From: Acidobacteriota bacterium
GTDB lineage: Bacteria; Acidobacteriota; Blastocatellia; Chloracidobacteriales; Chloracidobacteriaceae
Assembly: GCA_016208495.1 (NCBI GenBank)
Contig: JACQXX010000112.1
Location: 1 to 64,000, forward strand
DNA length: 64,000 nt
Reading direction: 5' to 3'
Part shown: positions 1,134 to 22,699 of the stretch, piece after piece
Layout: each line of letters opens with the position of its first letter
Position numbering within the stretch: the stretch's first letter is position 1
Notes under the pieces: generated by a model
Told to the model about the DNA's origin: nothing
Databases searched by the model: none
What the model saw: the letters and a program-made list of their open reading frames with translations, nothing else
Position numbers and translations under genes: made by a program

Positions 1134-1604
1134 ATGAAACGTCTCGACCAGGTTATTGACGTCATCATCGAACGCTACGACACGGAAAACAACCTCATGG
1201 TCAAGGAACACACCATCACCGATATGATTGCCCAAAATGGTGTTTCTATCCTGACTCGCAATCAGATACCGGTTGGGGATTTCCTGCTGTTTAAGACAGC
1301 GGATGGCTATTTTCAATCCTCGGCGGTCGTCAAATCCGCCCGGTTTGCCGAGGATTTTATCCAGCGCCTGACGCTCGAATTTGTCGGCGAAGACTGGCAA
1401 AAGAAATGGATTTATGCCCATTCGGAAACGGTAAGCCCGCTCCTCGAAGAGTTTTATGACATCGCTGAAGAAATGTCCATGCTGCTCCAGATCCTGATGC
1501 AGGACCGTGATCAGGGACAGTCGCCCGATGAAGTATTTCTGCTTCAGCTCCAGGAAAACGTAGACCGCCTCCGCAGCATTACTTTTCGCATCCGCAAGGC
1601 ATGA
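1134..1604 (+). CDS. Small PilZ-like protein
   Basis: This 156-residue cytoplasmic protein has a beta-rich pattern reminiscent of PilZ domains: VIDVIIERYD, then HTITDMIAQNGVSIL, then VGDFLLFKTADGYFQSSAVVKSARF and IQRLTLEFVGEDWQKKW. A C-terminal helical tail of about 60 residues follows. PilZ domains usually bind cyclic di-GMP through an RxxxR motif; only RMKR is seen just at the start codon, so ligand binding is doubtful. The ATG at 1134 is supported by GGAGAA at 1124-1129. The open frame continues upstream only as far as the end of repeat E2, so the N-terminus may have been shortened by that element. The 3' end overlaps the convergent A2M gene by 26 bp. The PilZ call is moderate. Confidence 0.6.
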   Translation: MKRLDQVIDVIIERYDTENNLMVKEHTITDMIAQNGVSILTRNQIPVGDFLLFKTADGYFQSSAVVKSARFAEDFIQRLTLEFVGEDWQKKWIYAHSETVSPLLEEFYDIAEEMSMLLQILMQDRDQGQSPDEVFLLQLQENVDRLRSITFRIRKA

Positions 1605-4600
1605 AAGTCGTCCCGACCGGCACAAACTTGTCTTTTTGAAGAATTTGACCATCCGCCGTCAAAGCCACAACCGAAAGTCTCCAGGTAGTAGCAGCAGGTG
1701 GAAACTTCAATTTGACACTCACCCTTCCTTGATGATCTGTTGCCAGACGTGGCGCCCAGAGTGCTGTTTCCGTAAAATCCTGCCGGAGGTGTGGTGCTGT
1801 AGGCCGCTTTGGTGACCTGACAGGTACGCGCAGACCCCGGTTGGCCGGCATGGGTGTTGTATGAAAGTAATTTGGCGCATACCACACGTTCATATTGGTG
1901 GTATTGCTTTGCATTCGGCCAATCTCCAGTTCCGTCACCTCACCAATACGGAGTACCAGGTTGATCAATGTAACCCGTTCAACATCAACCACAACTGGTT
2001 GTATTGAGCGCGGTAGAAGATTTTCAGAATCCGAAATAATTTCATATTGCCCAGGCGGCAAATTATTGATCAGGTAGGTTCCATCCTGGTTCGTCCAGTG
2101 GTAGGTCAGTCTTCCCGTCGTTTCGTTCTTTAGTTCCAGCCGAACATTACTGAGTGGATTTCCAAACTCATCACTTACCAAACCAACCATCGCACCAGAA
2201 CCTGGCCTGGAGGAACCTGGTTGTGCCTGGTGGCTGGGTGGCGCAACCTCCAGCAAAACTGAAGATGTGGCCAGTGTGAACCCCGAGCCAGCGTGTCTTT
2301 TGTCGGGCCCAGGGCTGCAGAGTGAAATTGTCCACCATTCTGATGTTTTGGATTCAGGCAGTTCACTCAACGAATTTTTCTTGAAGAGTACAAAGCAAGG
2401 GCTGCCCCACGGATCCCGAAGTTGTTCCAAATCAAGGCCGTTTTGTTTGAGGGCCGCCTGTAATGCAGCTTCGCGGTTTTCAGGTTTGAGAATCGCTTCC
2501 CCCGAATGAAACACCGTGGCCGTGAATTGTTCCCGTACCTTGCGGAAGGAATCCAAAACTGATGCCGTCAGGAGAAATCCTCCCCGGTCCAATGCGCTGC
2601 CATCATAAAATTCGTCGCTCGGAGAGGCTTGCCCACGCTCACCCGTACTTCGCACCAGAATGGCATAACAGCTTCTCAAAATCGGGAAGTCAAAAAACAA
2701 CCCGCGCCCCCATTCATCGCGCCGATGATCGAGGTCAATTCCCTGGCGCGCCATCTCAGTCTTGAGCGTGTCATAGTCGCGAATGTAGATTCCTGTGTGC
2801 TGAAAATAGCTGGCACTGGCCTGATCAATGGCTTTTTTGAGCGCCGTCGAATATACCCATCCACATTCGCCAGCCAGAAAATCATCTATGGTCTTGGGGG
2901 TTCGATCTGGTCCAGAGCTATAGATTTCCAGCACGTCACGCGCCTGCCTCCGCGTCACTGTTACCTGATAGGGCATTCCCCACGGATCACGAAGCGCAGC
3001 AAAGCTTTGACCACCAGCCGCCACAATGGACTCAACCTGCGCAACGGTTTCAGGTCGAGTGATTGCCTGAGTGACATGCGCTTTCACCAGATCAAGGAGT
3101 GGCTCAAGCTGTTTCTGAATATCTGGTTGAAAGAAATGAGCGATACATCGTGCTCCCCAGAGATCGGTATCTTCACGAAAGAACTCGGGTACTGAATACC
3201 ATTGCCAGGCAAGCACTTCCGCCACCAGTTGGAGTTCGTCCGAGATCGGCTGCGCCGGATCAAGACGGGAGAGGTCCGATAGCGAAAGCCTGCCTATCAT
3301 CCAGCGTCCACGAGCTTGGTCAAGTCCGCCGTCATAGCAGATTGGCCCTGTTTCCTCTCCATCGTTCTGAATGTGCATTGGAATTGCACAATCAACGACC
3401 GATACACCAAGGACACCTGTCACGGGTTTCCCATCTGTGGTTTGGAGATGACATACAATTTCTGCCTCGGCGCCGGGCTCAATCATTTTGCTCGAAGTAT
3501 CAATTGTCAGCCGTGGGACCTCATCCGGCACATACACAACCCACTGGCCCGGTAGAATCCATTCAGAGGAAAAGTGAGGCGACGTCACAGCCACCAGCAG
3601 CTTTCCTTTTAGATTTGGCTGGTATGGAAACACAACACTGGTTTTCCCTGGTTTGAGCGGCACAACTTTGCTCGCCACAATCTCATTTCCACGTATTACT
3701 GAAACCTGCCCCCAGCATTTGGGCAATGTTGACCAGAGCGTGACGCCAAGGGGTTCACCGGGGCGATAGATCGTTTTTTGTGTCTTCAGATCAAAGGGAC
3801 CACGCCCAAATGATTCAGGAGTAAATCCAAGCTCAAACCGGTCTCGATCAAGTTCTGCCAGACAGGCGCTGAACCGCACGTCAGGTCTGGCCAGTTCATC
3901 AGTCGGAAGTTCAACTCGGGCCAGCCCGTAACGACTGGTTTTGAATTTCCCAAGCGACGCCTTTTGGCGCTTTTCATTGGTTCGATTTGGCCCAAAAGTT
4001 ACAAGCCAGTCGGATGTCAGTTCAAATTCTGCCGCACAGGGTGTTCCATCGGCGGCGCAGGTGGCCACATACACCATACCAGGAACGTGAGGGTTCAACG
4101 ATTTTCGAGCCGAAAGGACATACAAATGAACCGGAGTTTTCGACAATCGCAGGTACAGCCGAGAAGACTCAGTTTTGCCGCTGGTTGGATCGCTCCATTC
4201 CACATCGAATGAAACATCCCGAAACCAGTCATGTCCACCACCGGAAAAATCGTCGTGATCGCGCGTGAGGTCAATTGGAAACTGGACCTGCCCAGCCAGG
4301 TTGGTTTTGACTTCGACTATAACTTCCTCGACTTGCGTTGTGGTTTGTTTTTCCTGATTCCAACCATCACGGCGGCGAATCACCCGGACCAATCCCTCAC
4401 AGATCGGCTCTCCTGAAAGATAAACCGCACTGGCACTTACGGTTGCAGTCTGACCGGGAAGATAAAACGAACGGTCAGTCTGAGCGGTCACAACAAACTG
4501 GGGTAATTCATACCGGCTGATTTTCACCTGTTGCGAGGTCGAACCAATCACCTCGGAGGTTACATCCATCACCTGCGCCTGAATGGTCAACAGTTCGGCT

Positions 4601-5547
4601 GGCTGGGTTTCTGGAATTGCCCAGTCAATCGCGGCGATTCCAAATTTCGACGTAGGACTGACAGTTCGAAAGACCTCGGAATAGGTTGAATTTTCCACTC
4701 GAAATTCTACTGGGACACCAGCCAGGGCCAGCCTGGAAGTTTGCTCTAGAACAATCGCTCGCACATGCAGAATCTGTCCGGGCTGGTAGACAGGTTTATC
4801 TGTAGTGAGCATTACCTGGGCGTTTTTCTCAACTTCAACGTCCCGCCTGAAAGTGTGGGTGTATTTTCCCCGGTGACAGGTCAACTGGAGTGCAACAGGA
4901 TCAGAGTCAGTGAGAGGTGGAAGGTCAAAGACGAGCCGGGCGAGCCCATCCGCATTTGTCTGACCAGAAACAGTCCGAATTTGAGGAGATTTTTCAGCTC
5001 CAATCGTGAGCGTTGCCACAACCTCAACCCCCTGGGCAGGCACACCAGAAAAGGGATGAAACGTTTTGGCTTCAACCCACCATTTCCCACGCCTGGGAAG
5101 GTTTCTGGGTGTTGTCAAACCAGGTGTGAAATACTCTGGGCAAAGTTGTGAAAGTGCCACAACCCCTTGAACCGGCTGAAGATCTCCCTGTGGTATCACC
5201 TGGTATCGCAACCGCCGGAGCAGTACCAGTTCCGATTGTTTCTCTTGATCGAGGATGGTGACCGGGCAGACAAAAGTCTGTTTTCCTGGTTGAAGCTGCA
5301 CAATTTGAGCTGGTTCAGCTCGCACTTCATTTTTTTCATTGAGTATTTCAAGTTTGACTTCAGCCGGGGTGACGCTGGCCGTTGGGTTATAAACCACCAG
5401 TTGAACCTGAGCCTGAGACGAACCAAAATCAAACCGTGAAGCGGCTTCATCAACGTACAAACCCGTTTGGGCAGTGATGTTCAATGATGAAAATAATATT
5501 AATCCAGAGATGATGCCGCACCAAACACACCAGACTGCCAGTCGCAT
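1579..5547 (-). CDS. Secreted alpha-2-macroglobulin family protein A, truncated before the thioester domain
   Basis: The 1322-residue protein is paralogous to the 2014- and 1966-residue proteins at 6908-12952 and 16799-22699. It has a signal peptide (residues about 1-26), macroglobulin domains with the MG2 signature TDKPVYQPGQ (about 250), three pseudopilin-like modules (DPWGMPY about 853, degenerate DEWGRGL about 942, DPWGSPC about 1043) and a carboxypeptidase-regulatory-like beta sandwich (about 1119-1205). It then enters the A2M domain (FTETALWAPRL...TTWRLSVVALTADG). The frame leaves homology after LQKDKF and stops 14 residues later. The paralogues continue for about 650 residues with the GCAEQ thioester domain, so this copy cannot trap proteases covalently. 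It looks like a 3' deletion product joined to the convergent PilZ-like gene; it could be decaying or a shortened functional form. Confidence 0.85.
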   Translation of the reverse strand: MRLAVWCVWCGIISGLILFSSLNITAQTGLYVDEAASRFDFGSSQAQVQLVVYNPTASVTPAEVKLEILNEKNEVRAEPAQIVQLQPGKQTFVCPVTILDQEKQSELVLLRRLRYQVIPQGDLQPVQGVVALSQLCPEYFTPGLTTPRNLPRRGKWWVEAKTFHPFSGVPAQGVEVVATLTIGAEKSPQIRTVSGQTNADGLARLVFDLPPLTDSDPVALQLTCHRGKYTHTFRRDVEVEKNAQVMLTTDKPVYQPGQILHVRAIVLEQTSRLALAGVPVEFRVENSTYSEVFRTVSPTSKFGIAAIDWAIPETQPAELLTIQAQVMDVTSEVIGSTSQQVKISRYELPQFVVTAQTDRSFYLPGQTATVSASAVYLSGEPICEGLVRVIRRRDGWNQEKQTTTQVEEVIVEVKTNLAGQVQFPIDLTRDHDDFSGGGHDWFRDVSFDVEWSDPTSGKTESSRLYLRLSKTPVHLYVLSARKSLNPHVPGMVYVATCAADGTPCAAEFELTSDWLVTFGPNRTNEKRQKASLGKFKTSRYGLARVELPTDELARPDVRFSACLAELDRDRFELGFTPESFGRGPFDLKTQKTIYRPGEPLGVTLWSTLPKCWGQVSVIRGNEIVASKVVPLKPGKTSVVFPYQPNLKGKLLVAVTSPHFSSEWILPGQWVVYVPDEVPRLTIDTSSKMIEPGAEAEIVCHLQTTDGKPVTGVLGVSVVDCAIPMHIQNDGEETGPICYDGGLDQARGRWMIGRLSLSDLSRLDPAQPISDELQLVAEVLAWQWYSVPEFFREDTDLWGARCIAHFFQPDIQKQLEPLLDLVKAHVTQAITRPETVAQVESIVAAGGQSFAALRDPWGMPYQVTVTRRQARDVLEIYSSGPDRTPKTIDDFLAGECGWVYSTALKKAIDQASASYFQHTGIYIRDYDTLKTEMARQGIDLDHRRDEWGRGLFFDFPILRSCYAILVRSTGERGQASPSDEFYDGSALDRGGFLLTASVLDSFRKVREQFTATVFHSGEAILKPENREAALQAALKQNGLDLEQLRDPWGSPCFVLFKKNSLSELPESKTSEWWTISLCSPGPDKRHAGSGFTLATSSVLLEVAPPSHQAQPGSSRPGSGAMVGLVSDEFGNPLSNVRLELKNETTGRLTYHWTNQDGTYLINNLPPGQYEIISDSENLLPRSIQPVVVDVERVTLINLVLRIGEVTELEIGRMQSNTTNMNVWYAPNYFHTTPMPANRGLRVPVRSPKRPTAPHLRQDFTETALWAPRLATDHQGRVSVKLKFPPAATTWRLSVVALTADGQILQKDKFVPVGTTFMPCGCEK

Positions 5548-6907: not shown

Positions 6908-9900
6908 TCACCGCTCCCGAATCACAAACCGGGCCGGAGCAATCACGGTCTGGGCTTCCGGGTTGTAGTAGTCATACAAAATTGACCGCACCGCTTTGGC
7001 GTTCATTGCAAAGCGTGGAGTGAACGAAAAACTCAAAGTGCTACTTCCCGTTGAAGACGGCCAGAGGTACAGAATCACCTGGTCAGGACGTACTTCGAAC
7101 GAATTTCCCCAGCTTCCAAGCTTTGCGACGGCTGTTTCCAGTGAAGCCTGATCAACGTCAACGCCCGGTGGGAGTCCGATTTCCGCCAGCAACATCCCGT
7201 AAGCGTTCTTCCCGGTTCGTTGAGCCGTCACCGTGCAGGTCACTGATTCGCCAATCATGGCTTCGGTTTTGTCGAATGCCACATGAATCTGCACGTCCGG
7301 CGATGTCACGGCGGGCGCCAGCGAACGGACAGCCCAGGGCACGTATGAACCAACCACCGCCTGCAGCGTGAGAATTTTCCCCGGCTGATTCCGTTTGAGC
7401 ACAATCTGGTTCCGTCCTGGAATCAACCACTTTGAAACATCAATAGAGAGAGGATTTAGAGTTCGGGAGTCAGGGGTCAGGGAAAGCGGTTTTTTTCCAC
7501 TGGCTGACCAGGTGACCAGTTTGGCCAGTGTGCCGTTGACCCACACTTCAGCCGATTCTGGTGTTTCGTTTGATTGAGCGGTGTGTGTTTCGCGCCTGGC
7601 CAGCACCAGCAATGCTCGCCAGGCGTTGAGCGAAGCCTGCGTTGAATACCACACGCCGTAACGATCTTTGGTTTCAATCAGATACTGAAAGCCACGATTG
7701 ATGAGTGACTCAACTTCGGCAGGTGGGTTGGCTCCCGAAATCGTCACCAGGGCTTGCAAAACGAGCGCGGTGGTTTCGATTTGCCCGGCAGTTCCCCAGC
7801 CATAAAACAAGGTTGGACCGGATTGCTCCCAGTAGACTTTTTCGCCTTTTCTCTGAGCCAGTTGTATCAATTGTGGGATAACTTCCTGGGCGCCAGCCAT
7901 GTCTCCAGTTTCAGATGCAGCCAGAACATAACACGCCAGAAAGTACGGATCACGGCTCGCTGCAATTCGAGGTTTTACAAAAGCCAGTCCTTTGGCGATG
8001 GCGTTCTGATTGATCGTGTTGACCCCAGCTTTGACCAGTGAATACACAATGCAGGCAGTCTGAGCAGCAGCCTGTTTGTCCTGTGTTCCGTTTCGCCACT
8101 GATAGACCATCGGCCAGTTTCCGTTCGGCAATTGCGCCTTGACCAGTGCTTCCTGGATTTGTTTCAGAACATAAGTATCAATTGCCGCAAACTCACTGGC
8201 CTGACTGAGAAACTGGACGGCATACGCCGTCAACGACCAGTTGGGATCACCGCTTCCCCAGTAGGCAAAGGCATTGTTTTCAAGGCGATACGCAATCAGC
8301 CGGTCGATGCCTTCCTGGGTAAGCGTTCGGGCTTTTTCCGCAGTGGGTGAGTCGAGTGCTCCGGTTTGCTTCAGGTATTGCAGGACCAGTACATTGGCAT
8401 AGGCAGCAGAAATTGTTTGTTCGGCACAGCCATACGGACGCTGCACAATGCCGTCAATACCTTCAAACACGTGATCTATCAAATTAGGATAGATTTTGAC
8501 TTCCCCCTTCAAGGTGCCAGGAACTGGATGTTCCGGCGCCGTCAGCTCAAGAGTGGTTGTACTGTCAGCCAGTTTCCCAACCGTTTGGACCTGTTCCTGG
8601 GCATCGGGAAGAACGGTCACGGACTTTTCGATAGCGTCTCCGGTGTGTGAATTCGTCGCTGTCACCTGCAATGGGCCGTGTTGTACCATCTGAGTCGCCC
8701 GAAATGAAAAAACCGGCTTTGCGTTGCTATTGGCAGCGACTTCCACCTGTTTTTGCGAAGAGCCGTGTAATTCAAACCAGCTTTCGGGTTTGAGTGAAAC
8801 CGTCATCGTTTGCGAATCCGGCAAAAAATTACGCAACAGCACCGGAAGCGAAAGTTCATCGCCAACTGTCAAAACCTGTGGCGGATCGTGTTCGATGAAA
8901 AAGGGCTGAAAGGCAGTGATTTCGGCTTCTCCAGTCACAAGTTCGCCATTCATCGTCGAAGCCAGCGCGTTGATTTTCCAGGTGGTTAAATTGTCAGCCA
9001 GATTGAAGTGAAGCTGTACCTGTCCGGTTTGGTCGGTCTCAAGCAGCGGTTCCCAGAGCAAAGTTTCCGGGAAATATTTGCGCAGCCGGGGCGTCGAAAG
9101 TTGGACGAGCGGTCGTGACGGTTGTGGGTCTTTAGCTTTGACAACCTTCTCGGCTGGTGAAGTTTGTTTCAGACGTGGCCCGGCGGTAACGGCCACCGCA
9201 TTCTCCTCTGTCCCTGGTTCGAGGTATATTTTAAGGAAAACAATCTCAGATTTTTGGACCGAAATATTCACCCATCTTGTACTGCTAAACCCATCTGCCG
9301 ATGCAGTTGCTGAATACAGACCAGGTGCCAGATCTTCAAATCTAACCCTGCCGGTTCCATCGGTGAGCGCCGTATAGATATTGCCGCGCCATTCACTTCG
9401 CAACTCAACTTTTGCCCCTGATATGACCGCATCCGTTTCATCTAAAACAGTTGCTATCACAACCCCACCGCTTCCGGTTGAAAGCACCGTTGCCCCTGCT
9501 GCCGAGTTCTCTCGACTGACCAGGGTCGAAAACAGACCAAGATCGAAATCATCCCAGGTTTCTTTTGGTCCATCTGGTCCCAAACTGGAGATTTTGATGG
9601 TCCAAAATTCCAGCTTTGGGGCCCCAAACTCGAATGCAGCCCTTTTCTCTTCTTCATCAGGAACTCGTTTTTCAAATTTCACCTGATAGGCATTTCCCCA
9701 CGGATCACGCAGTTCATCAAAATCAAGTCCTTCAGTTTTCAGCAGTTGGTTGAACACAACTTCTTTGTTTTCAGCCTGTTCAATCATTGTTGCCGATGTG
9801 CGCACCACCGAATCAATGACTTTGCGGATATCATCAAAGTAGCTGATCGTGGATTCCCACACGACAAAATCATCCAGCGGGAGATGGGTTTCGCTTCGCG

Positions 9901-12900
9901 GATTCAATTTGCCATCTTCGCCCGCACTTTTCAGATAGAAACAAAACCATTGTTCTTCAATGGTGAATTCGCACACCAGCGGATGGCCCCATCGGTCACG
10001 GAGATCAGACAGATTGATTCCTTCCAGGGCAAGTTCACGACGGAGCGTTTCAACATCGCGGATGTATTCTCCGGTTTTTTGATGGTAGGTCCGCAACACC
10101 CGGTCAATCACTTCCCCAGTTTTTGTAAATGGCGACCAACCAAGCTCCCCGGCAAGAAAATCATCATCTGTCCCTGGTTTTTTATCTGGCCCACTGCTTT
10201 TGATTCGCCATTTATCAAGGCCCAAAACCGGGACAAATTCCGATTGAAAGGGCATTCCCCAGGGATCGGTGATTTCGCTGAATTTCCTGCCGTGGGATGA
10301 AAAAATGCGTTCGACATCGGCTAAAGTTTTGGGGTAGGTGCGGTTTTTTTCAGCATAGTCAGAAACAATCTGAAAAACGGTCTTCAGCCTGGCAAGTACA
10401 TTTTGGTGAAAAATGGGTTGCAGGTTGGGTGATTCAGAGGTTCGATACCCAAAAAACCAGTATGCCTGATCAATCGGCCACGAATAATTGAGCAGAATTT
10501 CGGCCACTGTATCCAGTTCAGGTGGAAATGGTTGTGAGACATCGAGGTTTTCCAGATCCGTGAACGTCCAACCACCAACAGCATCATCAAATCCCCAGGT
10601 ATCTCCATTTTTGCCAAAGGCACCGTTCCAGGTGCCATATCTCCAACCGGTCGGGATTCGGCCTTCAATTGCTTTGTCGTAAATAGCGACACCCAGGGTG
10701 CTTTCAACTGGCTTTCCGTCTTTGGTAGACACCTTCAGGTCAAGAGTGTTTTTTGCTCCAGGCTTACAAACCAGTTCTCCAGGTTTTACCGTGAGCGCCA
10801 GAGTGTGTTTTGTTGGGAAGAACAGTGCAGTTTGTCCAATCACTTCTTCTTGATTGAGCTTTCCAGACGGAAACAGGGCAAACAAACTCAGAAGGCCAGC
10901 AAAATCAGGCTGATAGGAAAATTCAATGGTGGCTTTCCCCTGCTCAAACCAGATGTTTTTGGAGGCAACAACCTTCGACTTCTGAGCCACCACGGCCAAT
11001 CCCCAACCACTCGATTTTTGTGAGGCAACCAGATCGGCTTTGATTGTTTCGCCTGGGCAATACAGCGTTTTTTCCGGTCTGACCTGGATGCCCGTTTCAG
11101 GTTCATACAGCCAGATGGTATGAGTGGTTTTGACTGTGTTTCCTGATCGGTCACGCGCCACAATCTCAAAAGTCACCTCGATGTTCTCATAAGTTGAAGA
11201 AGGGATGCTGACTTTCAAAACTCCATAGCGACTCGTGCTCAATGTGCCAACCAGTTCACTTTTGACAGACGTTGTTCCGGCTTCACCGGCATCTGGTTCG
11301 AGTTGTTGTTGATACACCTCGACTTCACATTCAGTCGGAAGGCCATCTGGTGTACTGGTCGTGATGTAGAGTTCATATGGTCCGCCACGACTTTGAAAGT
11401 CACGCCGATCAAAGACATACACGTGGATTGGCTCTTTGGAAACCCGCACATCAAACTGACAGTGCTCGGTGCGCCCTGTGATCGGGTCTGTGGCATACAC
11501 CGAATAAGAAATATCCCCAAAATCCGGGTCACCTTTTTCGGCTTTCAGGTACTCCCAGGTTCCTGACAAATCCAGAGTGGTTTGGGAATGCCCTTGAGCA
11601 TCGGTTCGACTGGTAAAGGTCTCTCCTTCTTGCACATCATACTTTTGCTCGCGGAAATTCCATTCCCGTTCAATTTCCCTGACGACTCGCACCAGCGCAT
11701 TCTTCACTGGCTGCCCGAAAAGATAATCAGCCTTGATGTCAACCACCGCCACCTGCCCCGGTAGATAGAAAGTCCGATCTGTTTCCGCCTGTACCCGAAA
11801 TGTCGGAATCTCATACCGACTGACTTTGACCAGTTTTATTGCCGAACCACGAGGCCCAGAACTCTGGAGCTGGGCATTGATTTCAAAATCTCCCAGGCGC
11901 TGGTTTTCAGGAATCGTCCAGTCAGCAACCGCCACACCAAATCGTGAAGCTGTGACTTCTTTGTGAAAGATGGTGGTGGATTCAGGGTCTTTGATCTCAA
12001 ACTCAACTGTGATTTCTGAAACTGGTGGTCCGGTTTCTTCGGCAACCAGTGCCCGCATGTGCAGGGTTTGCCCTGGCTGGTACATCACTTTGTCAGTATG
12101 CAGCCAGATTCTGGCAACCCTATCCACCTTAAGTTCTGAACGTGCAGATTCAGAAAAAGTCTGTTTGGTACCAGTAACCTCAATCGTGGCAGACTCGTCT
12201 GGATGAATCTGGGGAAAGGTGAAATCCAGTTGTGCGGTACCGCTGATGTCGGTCGTTCCCGGCACGGAAAAAGTAGCTGGTTGTGCCTGATTGGTAATCT
12301 TGATGGTGGCAACAAGCTGCACGTCACTCACTGGTTTTCCAGTGATCGGGTGAAATGCCATAACCAGCACTTTGTATGCTCCAGGAGATGTGAGCCTTTC
12401 CGGTGTTGCCACCCGCAACTGAAAACAATCTGGCGTGATTTCTGAAACCGCAACGACACCGCTCACGGCATTCACTGTTTTTGGCTCTGGTGTGACACGA
12501 TATCGAACCCGATGCAGGTACAGGGATTCAGGCTTCCCATTGAAGAGTTTTCCCAATGACAGATTGACCGGGATACTTTGTGCGCCGGGATCGAGTATTG
12601 TCTGGATTGTGGCGCGCCGTGTGGCCGCATCCTCTGGGTCAAGCAATTCACATTCAATGGTTACCCGTACTGGTCGCCCGGTTGAATTGGTTACACTGAA
12701 TTTGAGTTCACCGTGGGTGTCAAAAGGCATCAGACGGATGAGCGATTCATTGACCTGGATTGAACCAGCGGCTGGAACACCAGTTTGCAATAAACGCCTT
12801 GCCTCACCAGCAAGCCCGCTCGTTGAATAGCCTGGATTTCCCTGAATCCTGAACCCTGAACCCTGAACCCTGAATGGGATAACTCCAACGTCAACAGCCA

Positions 12901-12952
12901 GAAGCAAACACAACACCACTCCGAACAGAACACACCAGACCGCAACACGCAT
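6908..12952 (-). CDS. Secreted alpha-2-macroglobulin family protein B with GCAEQ thioester
   Basis: This is a 2014-residue bacterial A2M-type protein. Such proteins act outside the inner membrane as broad protease traps. In order: a signal-peptide hydrophobic stretch (5-24), an inserted segment of about 36 residues derived from a repeat element (about 25-60), macroglobulin domains with MG2 motif TDKVMYQPGQ (about 285), three pseudopilin-like modules (DPWGMPF about 895, DRWGHPL about 983, DPWGNAY about 1081; the first continues SSGPDKKPGTDDDF), and a carboxypeptidase-regulatory-like sandwich (about 1160-1245). Then come the A2M domain (LLWEPLLETDQTG), a thioester domain with GCAEQ at about 1506-1510, and the C-terminal receptor-binding-like region ending IAPARFVIRER. 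It is larger than typical bacterial A2Ms (about 1500-1700) because of the inserted modules. The gene follows Rpn copy 2 on the same strand. Confidence 0.9.
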   Translation of the reverse strand: MRVAVWCVLFGVVLCLLLAVDVGVIPFRVQGSGFRIQGNPGYSTSGLAGEARRLLQTGVPAAGSIQVNESLIRLMPFDTHGELKFSVTNSTGRPVRVTIECELLDPEDAATRRATIQTILDPGAQSIPVNLSLGKLFNGKPESLYLHRVRYRVTPEPKTVNAVSGVVAVSEITPDCFQLRVATPERLTSPGAYKVLVMAFHPITGKPVSDVQLVATIKITNQAQPATFSVPGTTDISGTAQLDFTFPQIHPDESATIEVTGTKQTFSESARSELKVDRVARIWLHTDKVMYQPGQTLHMRALVAEETGPPVSEITVEFEIKDPESTTIFHKEVTASRFGVAVADWTIPENQRLGDFEINAQLQSSGPRGSAIKLVKVSRYEIPTFRVQAETDRTFYLPGQVAVVDIKADYLFGQPVKNALVRVVREIEREWNFREQKYDVQEGETFTSRTDAQGHSQTTLDLSGTWEYLKAEKGDPDFGDISYSVYATDPITGRTEHCQFDVRVSKEPIHVYVFDRRDFQSRGGPYELYITTSTPDGLPTECEVEVYQQQLEPDAGEAGTTSVKSELVGTLSTSRYGVLKVSIPSSTYENIEVTFEIVARDRSGNTVKTTHTIWLYEPETGIQVRPEKTLYCPGETIKADLVASQKSSGWGLAVVAQKSKVVASKNIWFEQGKATIEFSYQPDFAGLLSLFALFPSGKLNQEEVIGQTALFFPTKHTLALTVKPGELVCKPGAKNTLDLKVSTKDGKPVESTLGVAIYDKAIEGRIPTGWRYGTWNGAFGKNGDTWGFDDAVGGWTFTDLENLDVSQPFPPELDTVAEILLNYSWPIDQAYWFFGYRTSESPNLQPIFHQNVLARLKTVFQIVSDYAEKNRTYPKTLADVERIFSSHGRKFSEITDPWGMPFQSEFVPVLGLDKWRIKSSGPDKKPGTDDDFLAGELGWSPFTKTGEVIDRVLRTYHQKTGEYIRDVETLRRELALEGINLSDLRDRWGHPLVCEFTIEEQWFCFYLKSAGEDGKLNPRSETHLPLDDFVVWESTISYFDDIRKVIDSVVRTSATMIEQAENKEVVFNQLLKTEGLDFDELRDPWGNAYQVKFEKRVPDEEEKRAAFEFGAPKLEFWTIKISSLGPDGPKETWDDFDLGLFSTLVSRENSAAGATVLSTGSGGVVIATVLDETDAVISGAKVELRSEWRGNIYTALTDGTGRVRFEDLAPGLYSATASADGFSSTRWVNISVQKSEIVFLKIYLEPGTEENAVAVTAGPRLKQTSPAEKVVKAKDPQPSRPLVQLSTPRLRKYFPETLLWEPLLETDQTGQVQLHFNLADNLTTWKINALASTMNGELVTGEAEITAFQPFFIEHDPPQVLTVGDELSLPVLLRNFLPDSQTMTVSLKPESWFELHGSSQKQVEVAANSNAKPVFSFRATQMVQHGPLQVTATNSHTGDAIEKSVTVLPDAQEQVQTVGKLADSTTTLELTAPEHPVPGTLKGEVKIYPNLIDHVFEGIDGIVQRPYGCAEQTISAAYANVLVLQYLKQTGALDSPTAEKARTLTQEGIDRLIAYRLENNAFAYWGSGDPNWSLTAYAVQFLSQASEFAAIDTYVLKQIQEALVKAQLPNGNWPMVYQWRNGTQDKQAAAQTACIVYSLVKAGVNTINQNAIAKGLAFVKPRIAASRDPYFLACYVLAASETGDMAGAQEVIPQLIQLAQRKGEKVYWEQSGPTLFYGWGTAGQIETTALVLQALVTISGANPPAEVESLINRGFQYLIETKDRYGVWYSTQASLNAWRALLVLARRETHTAQSNETPESAEVWVNGTLAKLVTWSASGKKPLSLTPDSRTLNPLSIDVSKWLIPGRNQIVLKRNQPGKILTLQAVVGSYVPWAVRSLAPAVTSPDVQIHVAFDKTEAMIGESVTCTVTAQRTGKNAYGMLLAEIGLPPGVDVDQASLETAVAKLGSWGNSFEVRPDQVILYLWPSSTGSSTLSFSFTPRFAMNAKAVRSILYDYYNPEAQTVIAPARFVIRER
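12776..12877 (-). repeat. Interspersed repeat copy E5 inserted in frame in A2M-B
   Basis: The stretch begins ACACCAGTTTGCAATAAA and ends CCCTGAATGGGAT. It carries the ATTTCCCTGAA + CCCTGAA tandem block (12838-12877) that also forms the right half of copy E2. It encodes about 34-36 residues (from IPFRVQGSGF to RRLLQTGVP) that are absent from the aligned N-termini of paralogues A and C. Its ends are diverged versions of the family ends. Confidence 0.75.
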
Positions 12953-13280: not shown

Positions 13281-13556
13281 CTATGATTCGGTTGGAGGTG
13301 CTGATGTTCCAGATTCTTGAGCCAGCCAGGTTTCCAGGTCCTTGACCTCGTGAAAATCAAGCAAGGCATCTCCAAGCTCCTCCAACCGGGCGACCGGCAA
13401 TGATTCGATCCGTTGTTTCAGGTCAGCCGAAAACAGGCCCAGTCGCCGCGACAATTGTCGCAACACGATTTTGGCTTCACCTTCTTGCCGACCTTCCTGC
13501 CGACCCTCTTGGCGGCCTTCTTCCAGAATTTCCTGGTAAATCACTGATTCCCGCAT
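13281..13556 (-). CDS. Predicted intragenic RpnS-like antitoxin 2
   Basis: In frame within the Rpn gene, ATG at 13554-13556 is preceded by GAGGGAG at 13563-13569 with a 6-nt spacer, the same geometry as in copy 1. It would yield 91 residues: three GRQE repeats and the DUF4351 domain. The SD is kept although neighbouring bases differ between the copies (GGGAGAGACAT against GGGAGCGACAT). This suggests, but does not prove, selection for internal initiation. Confidence 0.5.
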   Translation of the reverse strand: MRESVIYQEILEEGRQEGRQEGRQEGEAKIVLRQLSRRLGLFSADLKQRIESLPVARLEELGDALLDFHEVKDLETWLAQESGTSAPPTES

Positions 13557-14159
13557 ATGTCGCTCCCTCAATATTGCTCGGATTAAGTTTTGGTCAAATC
13601 GCAATCCCGCCAGGATTTGCGTACACGTCAAAATATCGCGCCGTTCAACCGGTTTCGCAATCGTTTCAATGCTTTCTCCCACCTGGGTCAACAACTCGTT
13701 CGGATTGGTCGTCCGTGAAAACACCGCCAGCGGCAACAATGCTGGATGGTTCAAAAACAATTCCGGCGGCTGTTCCCACATTCGGATCACGTGATACCGA
13801 TGCACTGTGTCTCCTACTCGAAATTCATTCGGTAATGATCTTCCCGCCGCTGTTTCCGTCAAAATCACCACTACCTGCACCACGGGCAACCCATACTTCC
13901 GATATAGTCGCACAAAATAATCCAGCATTCGGAGTGGCACAGGTGGTTTACTTTCACCGACTGTTTGAAACTCCAGGTGCAGAATGCAGCCGTCCACCTT
14001 CAGAAACACCACAAAATCTGCCCGAATCGGTTCAATGCTCAGCTCGGTTTTCAGGATTTCAGCCTCCGTTGGCCGCTGACCCAGCACCCACTCAGCAAAA
14101 TCCAATGGGTATTTCTCAGCCAGGTATTTGCACAAATTGTCAGTCTGGATTCCGCTCAA
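13281..14159 (-). CDS. Rpn-family PD-(D/E)xK nuclease with DUF4351 tail, copy 2
   Basis: The 292-residue protein is nearly identical to the 310-residue one at 5876-6808. The nuclease residues IRADFVV and LEFQT are the same, as is the DUF4351 tail, but there are three GRQE units instead of six plus GQQE. The start is TTG at 14157-14159, which shares bases with the TGA stop of the upstream kinase (TTGA overlap). Translation therefore appears coupled to the kinase. Identity with copy 1 begins only after this junction (ATCCAGACTGA), which marks the edge of the duplicated block. In known systems the full-length protein is a toxic DNase. An internal start with GAGGGAG is present at 13556. Confidence 0.85.
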   Translation of the reverse strand: MSGIQTDNLCKYLAEKYPLDFAEWVLGQRPTEAEILKTELSIEPIRADFVVFLKVDGCILHLEFQTVGESKPPVPLRMLDYFVRLYRKYGLPVVQVVVILTETAAGRSLPNEFRVGDTVHRYHVIRMWEQPPELFLNHPALLPLAVFSRTTNPNELLTQVGESIETIAKPVERRDILTCTQILAGLRFDQNLIRAILRERHMRESVIYQEILEEGRQEGRQEGRQEGEAKIVLRQLSRRLGLFSADLKQRIESLPVARLEELGDALLDFHEVKDLETWLAQESGTSAPPTES

Positions 14160-16798: not shown

Positions 16799-19700
16799 TT
16801 ATTTCTCGCGGACAACAAACCGTGCTGGCGCGATCAGAACCTGCGCATCTGGATTGTAATAATCATACAAAAGCGAACGTACGGTTTTGGCTTTCATGGC
16901 AAACCGGGGCCGGAAGGTAAATTCAAGCGTATTTTTTTCATTCCGCCAGGGCCACAGGTACAGCACCACCCGATCCGGCTGGATGTCGAACGATTGCCCG
17001 CCGCGAGCCTGCTTTCTCAACGCCTGAGTGAGTGATTCACGGTCAACTTCGACGCCCGGCGGGAGTCCAATTTCCGCCAGCAGCATGCCATTTCCACGGT
17101 CTTTGCGTTCGTAGCCAACCCGGCACGTCACCACCTCGCCCAGGGCGGCTTCGGTTTTGTCAAAAGTCACGTCGAAGTTCAAATCAGGCGATTTCTGGGC
17201 GACTTTTCCTGGTTCAACGGTCCAGGGCACATACAGGCTGGTCATCAGTTGGGCGCTCATCAGTGTAACCGGTTGCTGACAGCGAAGTTCCACCAGATTG
17301 CGGCCCGGTGCAAAGCGCTCTGTCAGGTCAACTGTGATCGGAGACCAGCGGTCTTCCTTTCCGGTCAAGTCAATCGTTTTGAACGACTGACCATTGACCC
17401 AGACGTCAAGTGCTGAAGCGATCTTTCTGGCTTCACGTTCCTGCGCGTTTAGTGCAAACAACAATTCCCACACGGCAACCGAAGCCTGAGTTGAGAGCCA
17501 GACGCCGTGCCGATCTTTGTTCTGAAGCAGATAGAGCAATCCCCGATTGAAACGCGATTGCCATTCTGATGCCTGAACGTTTCCTGTCACCGCGAGAATT
17601 GCCCGTAGCGCCAGGGCCGTGGTTTCAACTTCCCCGGCGCGGCCCCAGCCGTGAAATGGCGTCTCAATCGATTGATTCCAGGAAACTTGCTCTGTACCCG
17701 GTTTGATCAATTTGCCTAATCGCGCTACGGCTTGAGCGGCCAGTTCTGGTTGACCAGCACGACTGGCCGCCAGTGCCGTCACCGCCAGCCAGTATGGGCT
17801 GTCACTCGGTTCAATCTGGCTGGCCAGTCGGTCAAGCGCCTTCTGGAATGTCTCAGACTTTTCTCCGGAACTGGCCAGACTCAGCGCCACATAAGCTGAT
17901 TGTTGAAGGTTATACACCGATTGATCGGGACGAGAATACCGGTTGTCAAAAGCCCAGCTTCCATCAGTTTGTTGCTGACTCAAAACATAGCTTCGGGCCC
18001 GGTCAATCACCGATTCATCCACCGTGGCAAACTCACGCGCATCGGTCAAAAACCGAATGGCATAGGCCGTCAAAGTCAAATCAGGCGAACCATTCCCCCA
18101 ATAGGTAAAACCACCTGTTTCATGCTGATACCCCAGCAACCGGTCAATTCCCTGCTGAGTGTAATCGCGTGCCCGTTGAGCGGTAACAGCTTCTGGTTGT
18201 TCAAGTTGTGCCAGGTATTTCAACACCATCACGTTTGGATACGTTGAGGAAATCGTCTGTTCGGCACAGCCATGCGGACGCTGCAAAATGCCTTCAATGC
18301 CTTCAAACACGTGGCCGAGCAAATTCGGATAGAGTTTCAGCGTGCTGTGAAGTGTCCCAGACAGAACTGTCGTCGGGACGAGAGTTTCAAACTTCGCACC
18401 TTCTGAGAAGAGTTGCCCATCAGTCTGGACCTGTTCCTCACCATCTGGTTGAACAGTGACTGGTTTTTCAACTGCGTCGCTGGATTCAGTTCCGGTAGCA
18501 GTTACCTGCTGGGTTGCCGTTGGCGATGGTTTTACGACGTCGAAAGAAAACGTCCGGCGGGCCTCGTTCTCACCAGCCACCTCAAGGGTTTTTGAAGCGG
18601 CATCACGGGTTACAAACCAGTCTTCCGGTTTGAGGTTGAGCGTGACGTTCTGCTTTTTCTTCAAGTAGTTGCGAACAATAACCGGGAGCGTGATTTGATC
18701 GCCGACGGTGAGGGTTCGGGGCGGATCGAGTTCAGCAAAAAACGGCTGGAACGTCTGGATTTCTTTTTCAACCACCCCAAGCTGACCATCAAGCGTCGAA
18801 GCCAGCACCGAAACTTTCCACGTCGTCAGACTGTCCGCCAGTTTGAAATTGAGCCGGGCGTGGCCATTTTGGTCGGTTTCAACCTGCGGCTGCCAGAGCA
18901 GGGTTTCCGGAAAATATCGCCGCACTCTGGGAGTAAAGAGCGGTACGGGAACTCTGGAGGCAACCTGTTGCTCTGCCCGTGTCCTGACTCGCGCCTCTGA
19001 GTTGGTGGTTTGTACCAACACCTCACCTGACGAAACAATGATGACTTCTGAGGAACCACCAACTATCAGCGTGACATTGGCGACGGTCATTCGGTTGCCA
19101 CGCAGCAAAACATTTTCATATCGAACGTGTTGAAAACCGCCGGCATTCGCATTGACCTCGTACCATCCGGGCGGCAGTTGCACCAGAAAATACTGGCCAT
19201 TCTCATTTGTTTTTGTGGAGAAGATCTGGCCGGTACCCTTGGCAATTGCTTCAATTTTTGCACCAGCAATAACGGCACCGGTCTCATCCATCACGGTTCC
19301 CATCAGGGTCCCGGTTGCACCGGTATCACTCTCTAAGAGCGCTTTTTCATCAGGAGATTGACCTGTCTGACTGGTCGCCGTTCGGGTTGCCAGCATTCCC
19401 AGGACGAAATCATCCGCATCCCCCTGGACCTGATTTGGCCCACGGCTGCAGATTGAAACCGTGCCATAGCGATACACAACCTGCATCTGAGGCGTCTCAG
19501 AGTTATCCTCATTGGTTGGTTTGAGTTCCAGGTGTCGGAAATTGAGATAGAGCGGGCTTTCCCACAGGTCACGCAACTCGTCAAAGACGATCCCAGCCGC
19601 TGCCAGTTTCTCTCGAAAAGCCTTGTCTTTGTCATGAGCCAGAATAATTTCCGGCAATACATCCCCCACGGCCTGCTCAAGCGTTGCCCAGGTGTCTACA

Positions 19701-22699
19701 AAATAATTGCACCTGGAAGTCCAGACTCGAAAATCATCGCCGCCATACGGCTGTTGTGGATCAACTTCGATGCCATCCTCGCCACGGCTACGCACTGCAA
19801 TGACATAGTTTTCCCGTTCAATTGAAAAAGTAAAGCGATAGGGCCTTCCCCACGGGTCGCGTAGCTCATCAAGTGCCAGATTTTGGCGGGCAAGTTCCGC
19901 TTTCAAGGTTTCATAGTCCTGGATGTAGCCTCCGGTGCGGGCATGGTACTGCTCCACAGCCCGGTCAATCCGTTTGCCGGTGGCCTGGAAAAAAGGCCAG
20001 TCAAATTCGATAGCGGCGAAATCATCCGGCGTACCGGGACGTTTATCCGGCCCATTCGTTACCAGTGACCCATTATTTTCTTCACGAAATGTTCTGACTG
20101 AGACGCGGTATGAAACACCCCAGGGATCTTTCAACTCGTCCAGTCCCACCCGGTGCGCTTCTAAAAAAGAAGCCAGTTCAGCCGCGTTTTGAGGTGGGGT
20201 TTCAGCCGATTCAAGGGCCTGTTGTATCTGAGTTCGAAATCCTTCCAGTGATTTGGAAACCGACTCACGAAAGAGTTCTCGCAATCTCCAAACCTCCAGA
20301 ACCGAACCGCCAAAGTGTCGAAAATCAGAAAGTGGGCTATACGGCTCATTTCCAAGGATTTCTGCCAGCACATCATACCCGGCTGGAAACGGCTCGGAAG
20401 AGTCAAGCTGGGCTAACGAACGAAAATCAATTTTTCCATCAACCAGTGTTTCGCCCAGCCAGCGATTGATGCTTTCTGAGAAGCCAAATTCAAGATTCGG
20501 ATTGAATTCACTCTGAAGACGAGCCTGAACCGCCCGATCCACCATCGCAACACCAAGCACGCTCTCAACCGGAGTATTCCCCGCAGTGCGAACGTCAACC
20601 TGGAGCGTGCCATTGGCTCCAGGAGCATAGATTTTCCGATCAGAGTTGGCCTTCACGTTGAGCCGCTGACTCTGTGGGTAAATAACAACCCAATGAGAAT
20701 CAATCAAATCCCCGGATTCCGTTGGTTTTGTACCGGTGGCGACCAGTTGTAAGACGCCTTTGAACTCTGAGCGATACGGAAACCGAATCAGTTTCGGTGA
20801 ATTTCCGGCCTGAATCGTCTGGCTGGCCAGCACTCGACCGGCTGAAACCACTGAAACCAGCACCTGACCGTTCTGGTTGTGAGCAAACAGCGTGGCCGTG
20901 ATGTCTTCGCCCGGATGATAGAGCGTTTGTTTCCCTTGAAGCATCAGGGCTGGCTCATCTTTTAATTCAACGCGGTGTGTGGTTTGGGTCGTGTGCCCGG
21001 CCTGGTCACAAATGGTCAAATCAAAAACCAGCTCATCACCAACCATTTCTTTTGCCGGAATCTCAATTTTAAGCAGTCCCAACTGGTTGGTACGCAATGT
21101 TTTGGCTCGACGAGGTTTCCGGGTTTGGCCTTCGGCGGTGGAAGCTGGCTGAGTTCGCGGCACGACTTCAACCGTCGTCGGAACAGCTTTTCCTTCAGCC
21201 AGTTCGGTCAGCACATAAAACGCGTAAGGCATTCCAACCACTGCCGGATGATGCCAGTTAAATACCTTGACCTGAAGCGATGATTGACTGACCCGAATCG
21301 TAAACCGCCCCTGCTCCGTTCTACCAGTTGAAGCATCGGTGAAATAAGCGCGATAGGTCGCATCCCTGATTGATTCACGGTCAGATTGGAGTTCCTCGTG
21401 AACCTGAGTCAGGTCAATCACCGTCTGAAACCGACCCTGGCTATTGGTAAGACCAGTCACGGGCTCGCCTTCGGTCACATCCCATTTTTGATGTTCATAA
21501 TTCCAGCTTCGCTCGACTTCACGAACCACCCGCACCTGGCCCTGTTTGACAGGCTGTCCGAAAAGGTAGGTCGCCTGCACGGTCACGGTGGCTGACTCAC
21601 CGGGAAGATAAAACGGCTGGTTGGTTTCGACGGCAACCACAAACGTCGGGAGTTCATAGCGACTGATTTTGATGGGCGTGCTGGTCATTCCACTCAATGA
21701 GCTGTCATCTGGAAATCTGGCAATGACGGAATATTCACCTGAGCGCTGATTCTCTGGAATTTCCCAATCTACCGTTGCCACACCAAACCGCGACGTGGTG
21801 GCTTCTTTCTCAAACACTGTTTCATAGGTTGGATCTTCGACTTGAAACTGAACGACCGCCGCCGCCGCGGCTTGTTTTGCGGCATTAAAAACAAGTGCCC
21901 GGAGATGCACGGTTTGTTTGGGCTGGTACAGCGGTTTATCGGTATGGAGAAAAAGTGTTGCCTCCCGATTGGGTTCCAGGTTTTGTTCAGTTGTTTGGGT
22001 CCAGCCGTTTTTTGACCCGGTCACTATGATTTTCACATCATCGGTTTTACCAATCGTTGGCAAATCAAATCTCAAAATGCCGGTTCCTTCAGCTCCGGTT
22101 TCGGCCTGGGCCGATTTGACCACTTCCCCGGTTTTGTTTTTGACTGTCAATCGGGCATCCAGCGCCACCCAGGGCACAATCCGACCAGTTACCGGATGCA
22201 CGGCTTCAACCAGTGCCAGATACCGTCCACCCACCGGTGCAAATTCAGGGACTCTCACCTGGAGCGAAAAAGAATCCGGCATGAGTTCCGACACCGACAC
22301 AATGCCGTGAGCCGGAGTTACCGTTTTTGCCGCTGGGGTCACTCGATACCGCACCCGGTCAAGCAAGAACTGAATTGAGTTTGGTGCACCAGGGGTGAAC
22401 CAGGAATGGTCAAACTTCAAGCGCAACAGCGACTTTCCAGGTTTCAAAACAGCTTGAACTTTTGTTTGATCTCGGATCGTGTCATCTGGAGTCAGCACCT
22501 CGGCTTCAACCACGGCCTCGACTGATTGTCCGGTTGGGTTCGTCACACTGAAGGTGAGTTCAACCTGTTGATTGTTCGGTGTTAATCGGATGGCGGACTC
22601 ATCCACCTGGACGGTACCAGTCGCAGAGACTCCACTCACGGCAAAAGCCAGAAAACCACACAGCAGGCCAGACAGGACAAACCAGATCGCGTAACGCAT
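16799..22699 (-). CDS. Secreted alpha-2-macroglobulin family protein C with GCAEQ thioester
   Basis: The 1966-residue protein has the cleanest architecture of the three: signal peptide ending near SGVSA (about 24), macroglobulin domains with TDKPLYQPKQ (about 256), pseudopilin-like modules (DPWGVSY about 855 followed by TNGPDKRPGTPDDF, DPWGRPY about 946, degenerate DLWESPL about 1042), a carboxypeptidase-regulatory-like sandwich (about 1126-1210), A2M domain (LLWQPQVETDQNG), thioester domain with GCAEQ at about 1476-1480, and the final region ending IAPARFVVREK. A2M proteins of this kind trap attacking proteases by cleavage-triggered thioester chemistry. The modules between the MG and A2M domains are extra and their role is unknown. 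The upstream neighbour on the same strand is the Rpn-like gene at 23058. Confidence 0.9.
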   Translation of the reverse strand: MRYAIWFVLSGLLCGFLAFAVSGVSATGTVQVDESAIRLTPNNQQVELTFSVTNPTGQSVEAVVEAEVLTPDDTIRDQTKVQAVLKPGKSLLRLKFDHSWFTPGAPNSIQFLLDRVRYRVTPAAKTVTPAHGIVSVSELMPDSFSLQVRVPEFAPVGGRYLALVEAVHPVTGRIVPWVALDARLTVKNKTGEVVKSAQAETGAEGTGILRFDLPTIGKTDDVKIIVTGSKNGWTQTTEQNLEPNREATLFLHTDKPLYQPKQTVHLRALVFNAAKQAAAAAVVQFQVEDPTYETVFEKEATTSRFGVATVDWEIPENQRSGEYSVIARFPDDSSLSGMTSTPIKISRYELPTFVVAVETNQPFYLPGESATVTVQATYLFGQPVKQGQVRVVREVERSWNYEHQKWDVTEGEPVTGLTNSQGRFQTVIDLTQVHEELQSDRESIRDATYRAYFTDASTGRTEQGRFTIRVSQSSLQVKVFNWHHPAVVGMPYAFYVLTELAEGKAVPTTVEVVPRTQPASTAEGQTRKPRRAKTLRTNQLGLLKIEIPAKEMVGDELVFDLTICDQAGHTTQTTHRVELKDEPALMLQGKQTLYHPGEDITATLFAHNQNGQVLVSVVSAGRVLASQTIQAGNSPKLIRFPYRSEFKGVLQLVATGTKPTESGDLIDSHWVVIYPQSQRLNVKANSDRKIYAPGANGTLQVDVRTAGNTPVESVLGVAMVDRAVQARLQSEFNPNLEFGFSESINRWLGETLVDGKIDFRSLAQLDSSEPFPAGYDVLAEILGNEPYSPLSDFRHFGGSVLEVWRLRELFRESVSKSLEGFRTQIQQALESAETPPQNAAELASFLEAHRVGLDELKDPWGVSYRVSVRTFREENNGSLVTNGPDKRPGTPDDFAAIEFDWPFFQATGKRIDRAVEQYHARTGGYIQDYETLKAELARQNLALDELRDPWGRPYRFTFSIERENYVIAVRSRGEDGIEVDPQQPYGGDDFRVWTSRCNYFVDTWATLEQAVGDVLPEIILAHDKDKAFREKLAAAGIVFDELRDLWESPLYLNFRHLELKPTNEDNSETPQMQVVYRYGTVSICSRGPNQVQGDADDFVLGMLATRTATSQTGQSPDEKALLESDTGATGTLMGTVMDETGAVIAGAKIEAIAKGTGQIFSTKTNENGQYFLVQLPPGWYEVNANAGGFQHVRYENVLLRGNRMTVANVTLIVGGSSEVIIVSSGEVLVQTTNSEARVRTRAEQQVASRVPVPLFTPRVRRYFPETLLWQPQVETDQNGHARLNFKLADSLTTWKVSVLASTLDGQLGVVEKEIQTFQPFFAELDPPRTLTVGDQITLPVIVRNYLKKKQNVTLNLKPEDWFVTRDAASKTLEVAGENEARRTFSFDVVKPSPTATQQVTATGTESSDAVEKPVTVQPDGEEQVQTDGQLFSEGAKFETLVPTTVLSGTLHSTLKLYPNLLGHVFEGIEGILQRPHGCAEQTISSTYPNVMVLKYLAQLEQPEAVTAQRARDYTQQGIDRLLGYQHETGGFTYWGNGSPDLTLTAYAIRFLTDAREFATVDESVIDRARSYVLSQQQTDGSWAFDNRYSRPDQSVYNLQQSAYVALSLASSGEKSETFQKALDRLASQIEPSDSPYWLAVTALAASRAGQPELAAQAVARLGKLIKPGTEQVSWNQSIETPFHGWGRAGEVETTALALRAILAVTGNVQASEWQSRFNRGLLYLLQNKDRHGVWLSTQASVAVWELLFALNAQEREARKIASALDVWVNGQSFKTIDLTGKEDRWSPITVDLTERFAPGRNLVELRCQQPVTLMSAQLMTSLYVPWTVEPGKVAQKSPDLNFDVTFDKTEAALGEVVTCRVGYERKDRGNGMLLAEIGLPPGVEVDRESLTQALRKQARGGQSFDIQPDRVVLYLWPWRNEKNTLEFTFRPRFAMKAKTVRSLLYDYYNPDAQVLIAPARFVVREK

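Follow-up and report, generated by a model that had tools for sequence, protein, structure and literature searches.

GspG-like modules and a receptor-like bait in the MG6 insert of Acidobacteriota A2M proteins

In animals, the main difference between inhibitors of the alpha-2-macroglobulin (A2M) type, named after the human protease trap, and complement proteins lies in what fills a single insert of the MG6 domain, either a bait strand or an anaphylatoxin, and what the bacterial A2Ms trap is still largely guessed. A 64,000-nucleotide stretch of DNA from an Acidobacteriota bacterium of the Chloracidobacteriaceae (GenBank assembly GCA_016208495.1, contig JACQXX010000112.1, positions 1 to 64,000; here called the window) encodes three A2M paralogues, A2M-A, A2M-B and A2M-C, which raise the question of what this place holds in a bacterial lineage and what it might do there. 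Here, we describe what appears to be a third solution, namely tandem domains of pseudopilin fold followed by a receptor-like bait. The MG6 insert may thus be viewed as an evolutionary socket, offering a direct route to asking what bacterial A2Ms trap, and the receptor-like baits name candidate targets: proteases acting on or passing through TonB-dependent receptors.

Modules of pseudopilin fold inside A2M proteins

In a Pfam scan, the domains of A2M-B and A2M-C follow the order MG2, MG3, A2M_BRD, a gap, CarboxypepD_reg, A2M, TED_complement and A2M_recep; MG2, A2M/MG7, the thioester domain (TED) and the receptor domain all exceed their cut-offs, and A2M domains above cut-off flank the insert on either side. 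Each of the three paralogues carries three consecutive modules of about 90-115 residues at aligned places between the bait-region domain and MG7, as a preliminary description of the locus had proposed, and in A2M-C they occupy the region where it had put them, at about residues 830-1110 (Table 1).

The kinship of these modules to GspG, the major pseudopilin of type II secretion, is called from the agreement of sequence, fold and rank. The Pfam profile T2SSG (PF08334) matches A2M-C at 23.4 bits, above its gathering score of 21, and A2M-B and A2M-A at 18.3 and 14.1 bits, below it, while the NCBIfam TIGR01710 cut-off of 88.85 bits is not reached (C 16.6 bits, B 11.8, A no match). A PDB search with the single C insert returned nothing, and the match to GspG structures emerged because a family profile was used: with 32 module-1 sequences, GspG chains came first (best E 3.4e-5) and the first eight of 12 matches were GspG-type. 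An AlphaFold2 prediction for B module 1, from an alignment of 15 modules from the window and the loci L032 and L033, gave the pilin-type helix and sheet expected from the preliminary description, as helix-helix-three strands, with a predicted local distance difference test (pLDDT) score of 93.5 and a predicted template modelling (pTM) score of 0.81. Foldseek assigned this model a probability of 1.00 for two chains only, both of the enterohaemorrhagic Escherichia coli (EHEC) GspG 3g20, with E-values of 8e-3 and 1.7e-2, that is, not below 1e-3, and a TMq of 0.59. In VIA-align, the top eight rows are all GspG-type pseudopilins, with GspG/PulG/EpsG/XcpT coming first at Z 7.1-5.1 (a Z under 8 being weak taken alone) and type IV pilins following at 4.6 and lower; the best match has a root mean square deviation (rmsd) of 2.8 over 84 aligned residues.

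For modules 2 and 3, the kinship to GspG rests on their homology to module 1, whose profile matches those of modules 2 and 3 with 99.7% probability (E 2e-26 and 4e-26), and on a 791-residue model of A2M-C (residues 580-1370), in which each of the three modules is built of helices and then three strands, for the most part at pLDDT 75-93. The mutual arrangement of the modules in this model is unreliable (mean pLDDT 65, pTM 0.42). The PDB rows obtained with the profiles of modules 2 and 3 themselves were taken as noise, the best for module 3 being UDP-glycosyltransferase 74F2 (E 0.009) and those for module 2 mixing GspG (E 0.15) with unrelated chains. A structure search covering the C regulatory domain, which follows the modules, placed no pseudopilin among the 50 matches listed, which were taken up by A2M, complement and regulatory domains, and a PHROGs search with the insert found nothing.

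With GspG/PulG/EpsG/XcpT the modules share the helix, the second helix, three strands, the DPWG turn and the Asp loop; unlike these proteins they are internal and in tandem, beginning after a polar stretch, and reading of the sequences revealed neither a prepilin peptidase site nor a hydrophobic N-terminal helix. Because this pilin N-terminus is missing, the evidence supports calling them GspG-like domains and not pseudopilins, so that of the earlier identification the term 'pseudopilin-like' stands and 'pseudopilin' does not. The degenerate copies noted earlier are real, the number of intact modules being two of the three in each protein rather than one or two: exact DPWG is found in modules 1 and 2 of A2M-C and modules 1 and 3 of A2M-B and A2M-A, the remainder reading DLWE, DRWG and DEWG. 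Across 32 aligned inserts (the partial L034 was left out), D137, D171, D172, D227 and D323 are invariant, and a loose calcium-loop pattern is present in 30 of 32 copies of module 1, 27 of module 2 and 18 of module 3, with module 3 and some module 2 copies degenerate. The Asp-rich loop proposed at the outset is therefore conserved in sequence. GspG requires Ca2+ and its Asp ligands (PMC10574481, PMC6692295), and the modules may likewise bind Ca2+.

Among 98 related genomes, the insert profile has matches in 31 at E <= 1e-3 and in 29 at E <= 4.2e-35, the latter in open reading frames (ORFs) of about 1330-2110 residues; the two further genomes hold a one-module A2M (G021) and a 363-residue ORF (G056). 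While the preliminary description knew of no other A2M with such inserts, they are thus not peculiar to this genome, forming a conserved family in 29 of its 98 relatives. In a sample of the phylum, scoring up to four top candidates in each genome gave matches at 1e-6 in 33 of 396. Long matches also occur in three named records, which belong to the Acidobacteria and one of which is identical to a same-class relative (L033 = L063). The 29 relatives with the arrangement are probably all Acidobacteriota. A tree of 102 modules, computed without those of L065, groups 31 of 31 copies of module 1 (support 0.92), 31 of 31 of module 2 (0.34) and 30 of 31 of module 3 (0.82), keeping the positions as separate groups across about 21 genera. 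Each position is thus orthologous from one species to the next and the triplication predates the family's spread, and no module loss was seen in the 32 aligned inserts. Other module numbers occur at the same insertion place, with one-module A2Ms at L131, L132, L133, L134 and L070, and weakly at L141 in the source genome, and two four-module proteins at L130; where the Pfam map of a one-module protein is complete, the module lies about 80-95 residues past the bait-region domain. Small lipoprotein-like ORFs with the module alone were found at L144-L147.

That the modules mimic the type II pseudopilus of the same cell, considered as the main explanation, was not supported, because no GspG exceeded the cut-off in any of the 98 relatives and the GspG-like hits (15 of 98 genomes at 1e-10) were not associated with the insert: 5 of the 31 insert genomes have one, where 4.7 were expected. 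The source genome likewise has no type II secretion major pseudopilin over cut-off. Its only PF08334 match over cut-off (L001 1189-1785, G000:C78) is a 199-residue protein that begins with a secretion-signal-like sequence, carries a GspG-like domain at its C-terminus and lacks the pilin N-terminus.

Insertion site and receptor-like bait

Among PDB entries, CD109, A2M, TEP1 and C4 are the nearest to the scaffold of A2M-C (E to 2e-41), and similarity restarts at residues 1255-1260, a few residues into the alpha' chain of C3. In A2ML1, linker and bait are described as one insert of MG6, with the anaphylatoxin standing in the bait's stead in complement (PMC9156758). The module insert is inside MG6, at the bait position of animal A2Ms and the anaphylatoxin position of C3/C4/C5. 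The MG domains, thioester domain, receptor domain, MG6 insert and BR-C R..F motif are all shared with complement C3/C4/C5, A2M, A2ML1, CD109 and TEP1, the difference being that the insert here consists of three GspG-like modules, a carboxypeptidase-regulatory domain and a short bait rather than a bare bait or an anaphylatoxin; no anaphylatoxin family appears in the Pfam lists of A2M-A, B or C at E <= 1. The YfhM-type A2Ms of E. coli and Salmonella (PDB 4u48, 5a42, 4ziq), which are also bacterial and have A2M and TED domains, match more weakly, at E of about 1e-9 to 1e-10 compared with 2e-41 for CD109, and the bMG families are below cut-off here.

The modules are followed by the carboxypeptidase-regulatory domain, a short, variable, disordered segment, an R..FPET motif and, in two of the three paralogues, the thioester. 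The motif is the counterpart of Arg730 and Phe733 in BR-C of A2ML1, which follow the bait, are conserved and have been proposed as drivers of the post-cleavage change (PMC9156758). In a 33-member family set, R..F.E[T/S] is present in 31 proteins and GC[AG]EQ in 29, those without the latter being A2M-A, L063 (at a contig end), L065 and L034; L057_4596 and the L033 duplicate were dropped before counting, and L052, L056 and L062 are outside the set as the first filter demanded a D[PRG]WG string. The segment before R..FPET, which varies from 26 to 115 residues, shows the lowest conservation anywhere in the protein (mean identity 26%), and in the 791-residue model most of A2M-C from about 1215 to 1271 has a pLDDT of 22-26. 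On this disorder, lowest identity and variable length directly before the trigger motif, we take the segment, at about residues 1215-1257 of A2M-C, as the putative bait.

The regulatory domain brings in a different set of relatives. By structure, that of A2M-C resembles the N-terminal extension of a SusC transporter (9hfj, Z 11.5, rmsd 1.9, 80 aligned), and together with the bait segment it scores 106 bits against a profile made only from the N-termini of TonB-dependent receptors. This profile was built from 20 receptor proteins, of which seven were scanned, all seven combining CarboxypepD_reg with a PF25183 outer-membrane barrel, and it matches all 31 A2M regulatory-domain-plus-bait segments tested, at 50-183 bits. 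The stretch from regulatory domain to motif in L043 has 24-54 matching places per genome (4 genomes), mostly in ORFs of about 1000-1300 residues, and the matches span query residues of about 14-175, well beyond the regulatory domain (19-99). Once the regulatory domain is removed, the highest score among 740 shuffles, 8.7 bits, is exceeded by 26 of 37 baits, and 13 of these reach at least 25 bits; the bait of A2M-C alone scores 13.8 bits, and relatives can be strong, L043 reaching 79 bits. In 11 of the 37 baits, a TonB-box-like string stands at a constant distance behind the regulatory domain, and 13 have one anywhere (shuffles: mean 0.8, maximum 5). The pattern used, based on what we take to be the TonB-box consensus, picks out 8 of the 20 receptors and, among baits of A2Ms without modules, 2 of 60.

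The likeness extends to A2Ms that lack modules and were not used to build the receptor profile: among 60 of these from the related genomes, taken roughly in list order and not at random, 17 baits outscore every one of 1200 shuffles and 60 scaffold windows, with plug-like strings such as LPMNGRNF or GGFQVDGASGSENVWVIDGQEVTNFRTG in several A2M subfamilies. Oar-like receptors (CarboxypepD_reg, plug and PF25183 barrel) share the regulatory domain with the module family, many members of which have the TonB-box-like and plug-start strings as well; in contrast to these receptors the A2Ms have no complete plug, no outer-membrane barrel family was found in A2M-A, B or C by Pfam, and the likeness is limited to about the first 110-180 residues. 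That the regulatory domain and bait share ancestry with the N-terminus of Oar-like TonB-dependent receptors is part of what seems to us the best explanation.

A possible protease trap and its alternatives

What, then, might such an insert be for? We consider it reasonably probable that A2M-B and A2M-C are envelope protease traps of the A2M/complement kind, with an enlarged and partly borrowed bait insert. The N-terminus is signal-peptide-like when read by eye, and a periplasmic location is likely. An intruding protease would cleave the disordered segment directly ahead of R..FPET, the freed BR-C strand would retract as in A2ML1/C3, and the GCAEQ thioester would be exposed and bind the protease covalently; bait cleavage, strand retraction and thioester coupling are steps known from relatives, and by analogy may occur here. 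The MG6 insert would have grown into a helical linker, the three GspG-like modules, the carboxypeptidase-regulatory domain and the short disordered bait. In this picture the modules would form a compact spacer by which the regulatory domain and bait are kept off the A2M body or presented to targets, and Ca2+ probably stiffens at least module 1. The combination suggests that part of the protease trap was rebuilt with components of the cell's own envelope. Several points weigh against this proposal. Covalent trapping by A2M-B and A2M-C is presumed from their relatives; A2M-A carries the insert but lacks a thioester domain; the 791-residue model gives the relative placement of the domains with low confidence; and no gene neighbour is common to all loci that would hint at a partner. 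The receptor likeness is also uneven, the B bait scoring 2.2 bits, not above shuffles, and A giving no similarity, and the receptor profile was seeded by an A2M bait, which biases it towards similarity, with shuffles and scaffold windows controlling for composition only.

The module role itself (Ca2+-stabilised spacer, docking site or decoy) could be read otherwise. As an integrated decoy, the insert might imitate envelope proteins (a GspG-like domain, a receptor N-terminal extension, a TonB box and a plug start), and proteases or other attackers binding or cutting such proteins would then spring the trap. The plug-like strings of the non-module baits fit this, 17 of 60 scoring above a level that none of the 1200 shuffles or 60 scaffold windows exceeds and several subfamilies being involved, as do the fixed TonB-box-like strings (11 of 37 baits, 13 anywhere) and the abundance of Oar-like receptors in the four genomes counted; in Myxococcus, moreover, Oar is reported to interact with the protease PopC and to be needed for its export (PMC6434023). 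However, gene fusion followed by drift would give equal similarity, the genomes offer no GspG over the TIGR01710 cut-off to be imitated and no association of GspG-like hits with the insert, and the TonB-box pattern, presumed as it is, detects few receptors (8 of 20) and 2 of 60 non-module baits, so we think this account of the insert unlikely. The wider proposal is that Acidobacteriota A2M baits are integrated decoys, comparable to those of plant immune receptors, that were assembled repeatedly from envelope pieces of the cell itself, namely GspG-like modules together with three parts of Oar-like receptors (N-terminal extension, TonB box and plug start), and that lead receptor-engaging proteases or other attackers into a covalent trap. 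It is a tentative proposal that we rather doubt; in a bolder form, the TonB box would let TonB itself bind or pull the bait.

Less likely again is that the modules, with the regulatory domain, dock the A2M onto a partner machine, such as a type IV pilus, the Ton system or an outer-membrane receptor, for reasons unrelated to cleavage. The conserved module order and the Asp residues mostly kept in modules 1 and 2 over many genera suggest binding surfaces, and stand-alone lipoproteins with the module exist, but there is neither a conserved gene neighbour nor a known partner, and Oar without its N-terminal extension is reported still to support PopC export, so that this domain need not be a docking site (PMC6434023). 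Nor does it seem at all probable that mobile domains merely entered a tolerant MG6 loop and duplicated to no specific end: the module evidently moves easily, having been met within a sodium:alanine symporter and as the last domain of a DUF4388 protein, and its third and some second copies are degenerate, yet the three positions persist as separate groups over about 21 genera, with invariant Asp residues and no loss in 32 inserts. The protease trap is thus the reading we prefer.

The A2M kind and the GspG fold are both already known; what appears new from the sequences is their combination at the anaphylatoxin position, together with receptor-like A2M baits. The searches made in the open-access literature turned up no paper on a macroglobulin with pseudopilin modules, on A2M architecture in acidobacteria, on receptor-like A2M baits or on acidobacterial TonB-dependent receptors with the regulatory domain, and domain databases may already list such architectures.

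Gene copies and surroundings

Table 1. Features of the three A2M genes in the window
Feature	Coordinates	Strand	Residues	Description
A2M-C	16799..22699	-	1966 in total	MG2, MG3, A2M_BRD, insert, CarboxypepD_reg, A2M/MG7, TED with GCAEQ, A2M_recep
C module 1	20003..20275	-	809-899	GspG-like, DPWG and GPDKRPGTPDDF
C module 2	19730..20002	-	900-990	GspG-like, DPWG
C module 3	19391..19729	-	991-1103	GspG-like, degenerate DLWE
C carboxypeptidase-regulatory domain	19067..19309	-	1131-1211	
C putative bait segment	18929..19057	-	about 1215-1257	low-confidence/disordered; weak plug/TonB-box-like similarity, 13.8 bits
C trigger motif	18893..18922	-	1260-1269	RRYFPETLLW, counterpart of BR-C Arg/Phe of A2ML1
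C thioester motif	18257..18271	-	1477-1481	GCAEQ
A2M-B	6908..12952	-	2014 in total	architecture as in A2M-C
B module 1	10142..10414	-		DPWG; AlphaFold model pLDDT 93.5, GspG fold
B module 2	9866..10141	-		DRWG
B module 3	9530..9865	-		DPWG
B carboxypeptidase-regulatory domain	9242..9451	-	1168-1237	
B trigger motif	9053..9082	-		RKYFPETLLW
B thioester motif	8417..8431	-	1508-1512	GCAEQ
A2M-A	1579..5547	-	1322 in total	stops inside MG7, without thioester domain
A module 1	2863..3135	-		DPWG, GPDRTPKTIDDF
A module 2	2575..2862	-		degenerate, DEWG
A module 3	2263..2574	-		DPWG; Asp pair lost
A carboxypeptidase-regulatory domain	1951..2187	-	1121-1199	

A2M-A keeps its modules and has lost everything past the first half of MG7: Pfam gives no TED match, a complete thioester domain is absent, and no remnant of the missing part was found in the first 5.6 kb of the window. 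It is either a decaying gene or a thioester-free bait protein. A fragment lies nearby at 1-549, which we take to be an IS605-like OrfB. Elsewhere in the source genome, a decayed, frameshifted A2M fragment retains one GspG-like module and the regulatory domain (L068 5000-7500, G000:C74), and the eleven matches to PF00207 (A2M) in this genome (G000) are the highest count of the 98 searched.

The module was also met in two proteins of other kinds, a sodium:alanine symporter of Verrucomicrobiae with a GspG-like module inserted (L036 8789-10498; T2SSG 35.9 bits, over cut-off) and a Methylomirabilota DUF4388 protein ending in one (L035 5990-7192; 19.2 bits, just under cut-off).

Two near-identical gene copies on the minus strand, 96% identical over 672 bp and then 90%, lie immediately upstream of A2M-A (5876-6808) and of A2M-B (13281-14159). 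The copies, which differ in the number of EGRQ repeats, are presumably akin to PD-(D/E)XK/Rpn-type transposase-linked proteins. Between A2M-C and A2M-B, at 14156-16198 on the minus strand, there is a gene that reads as a serine/threonine kinase with a C-terminal sulfatase-modifying-factor-like domain.
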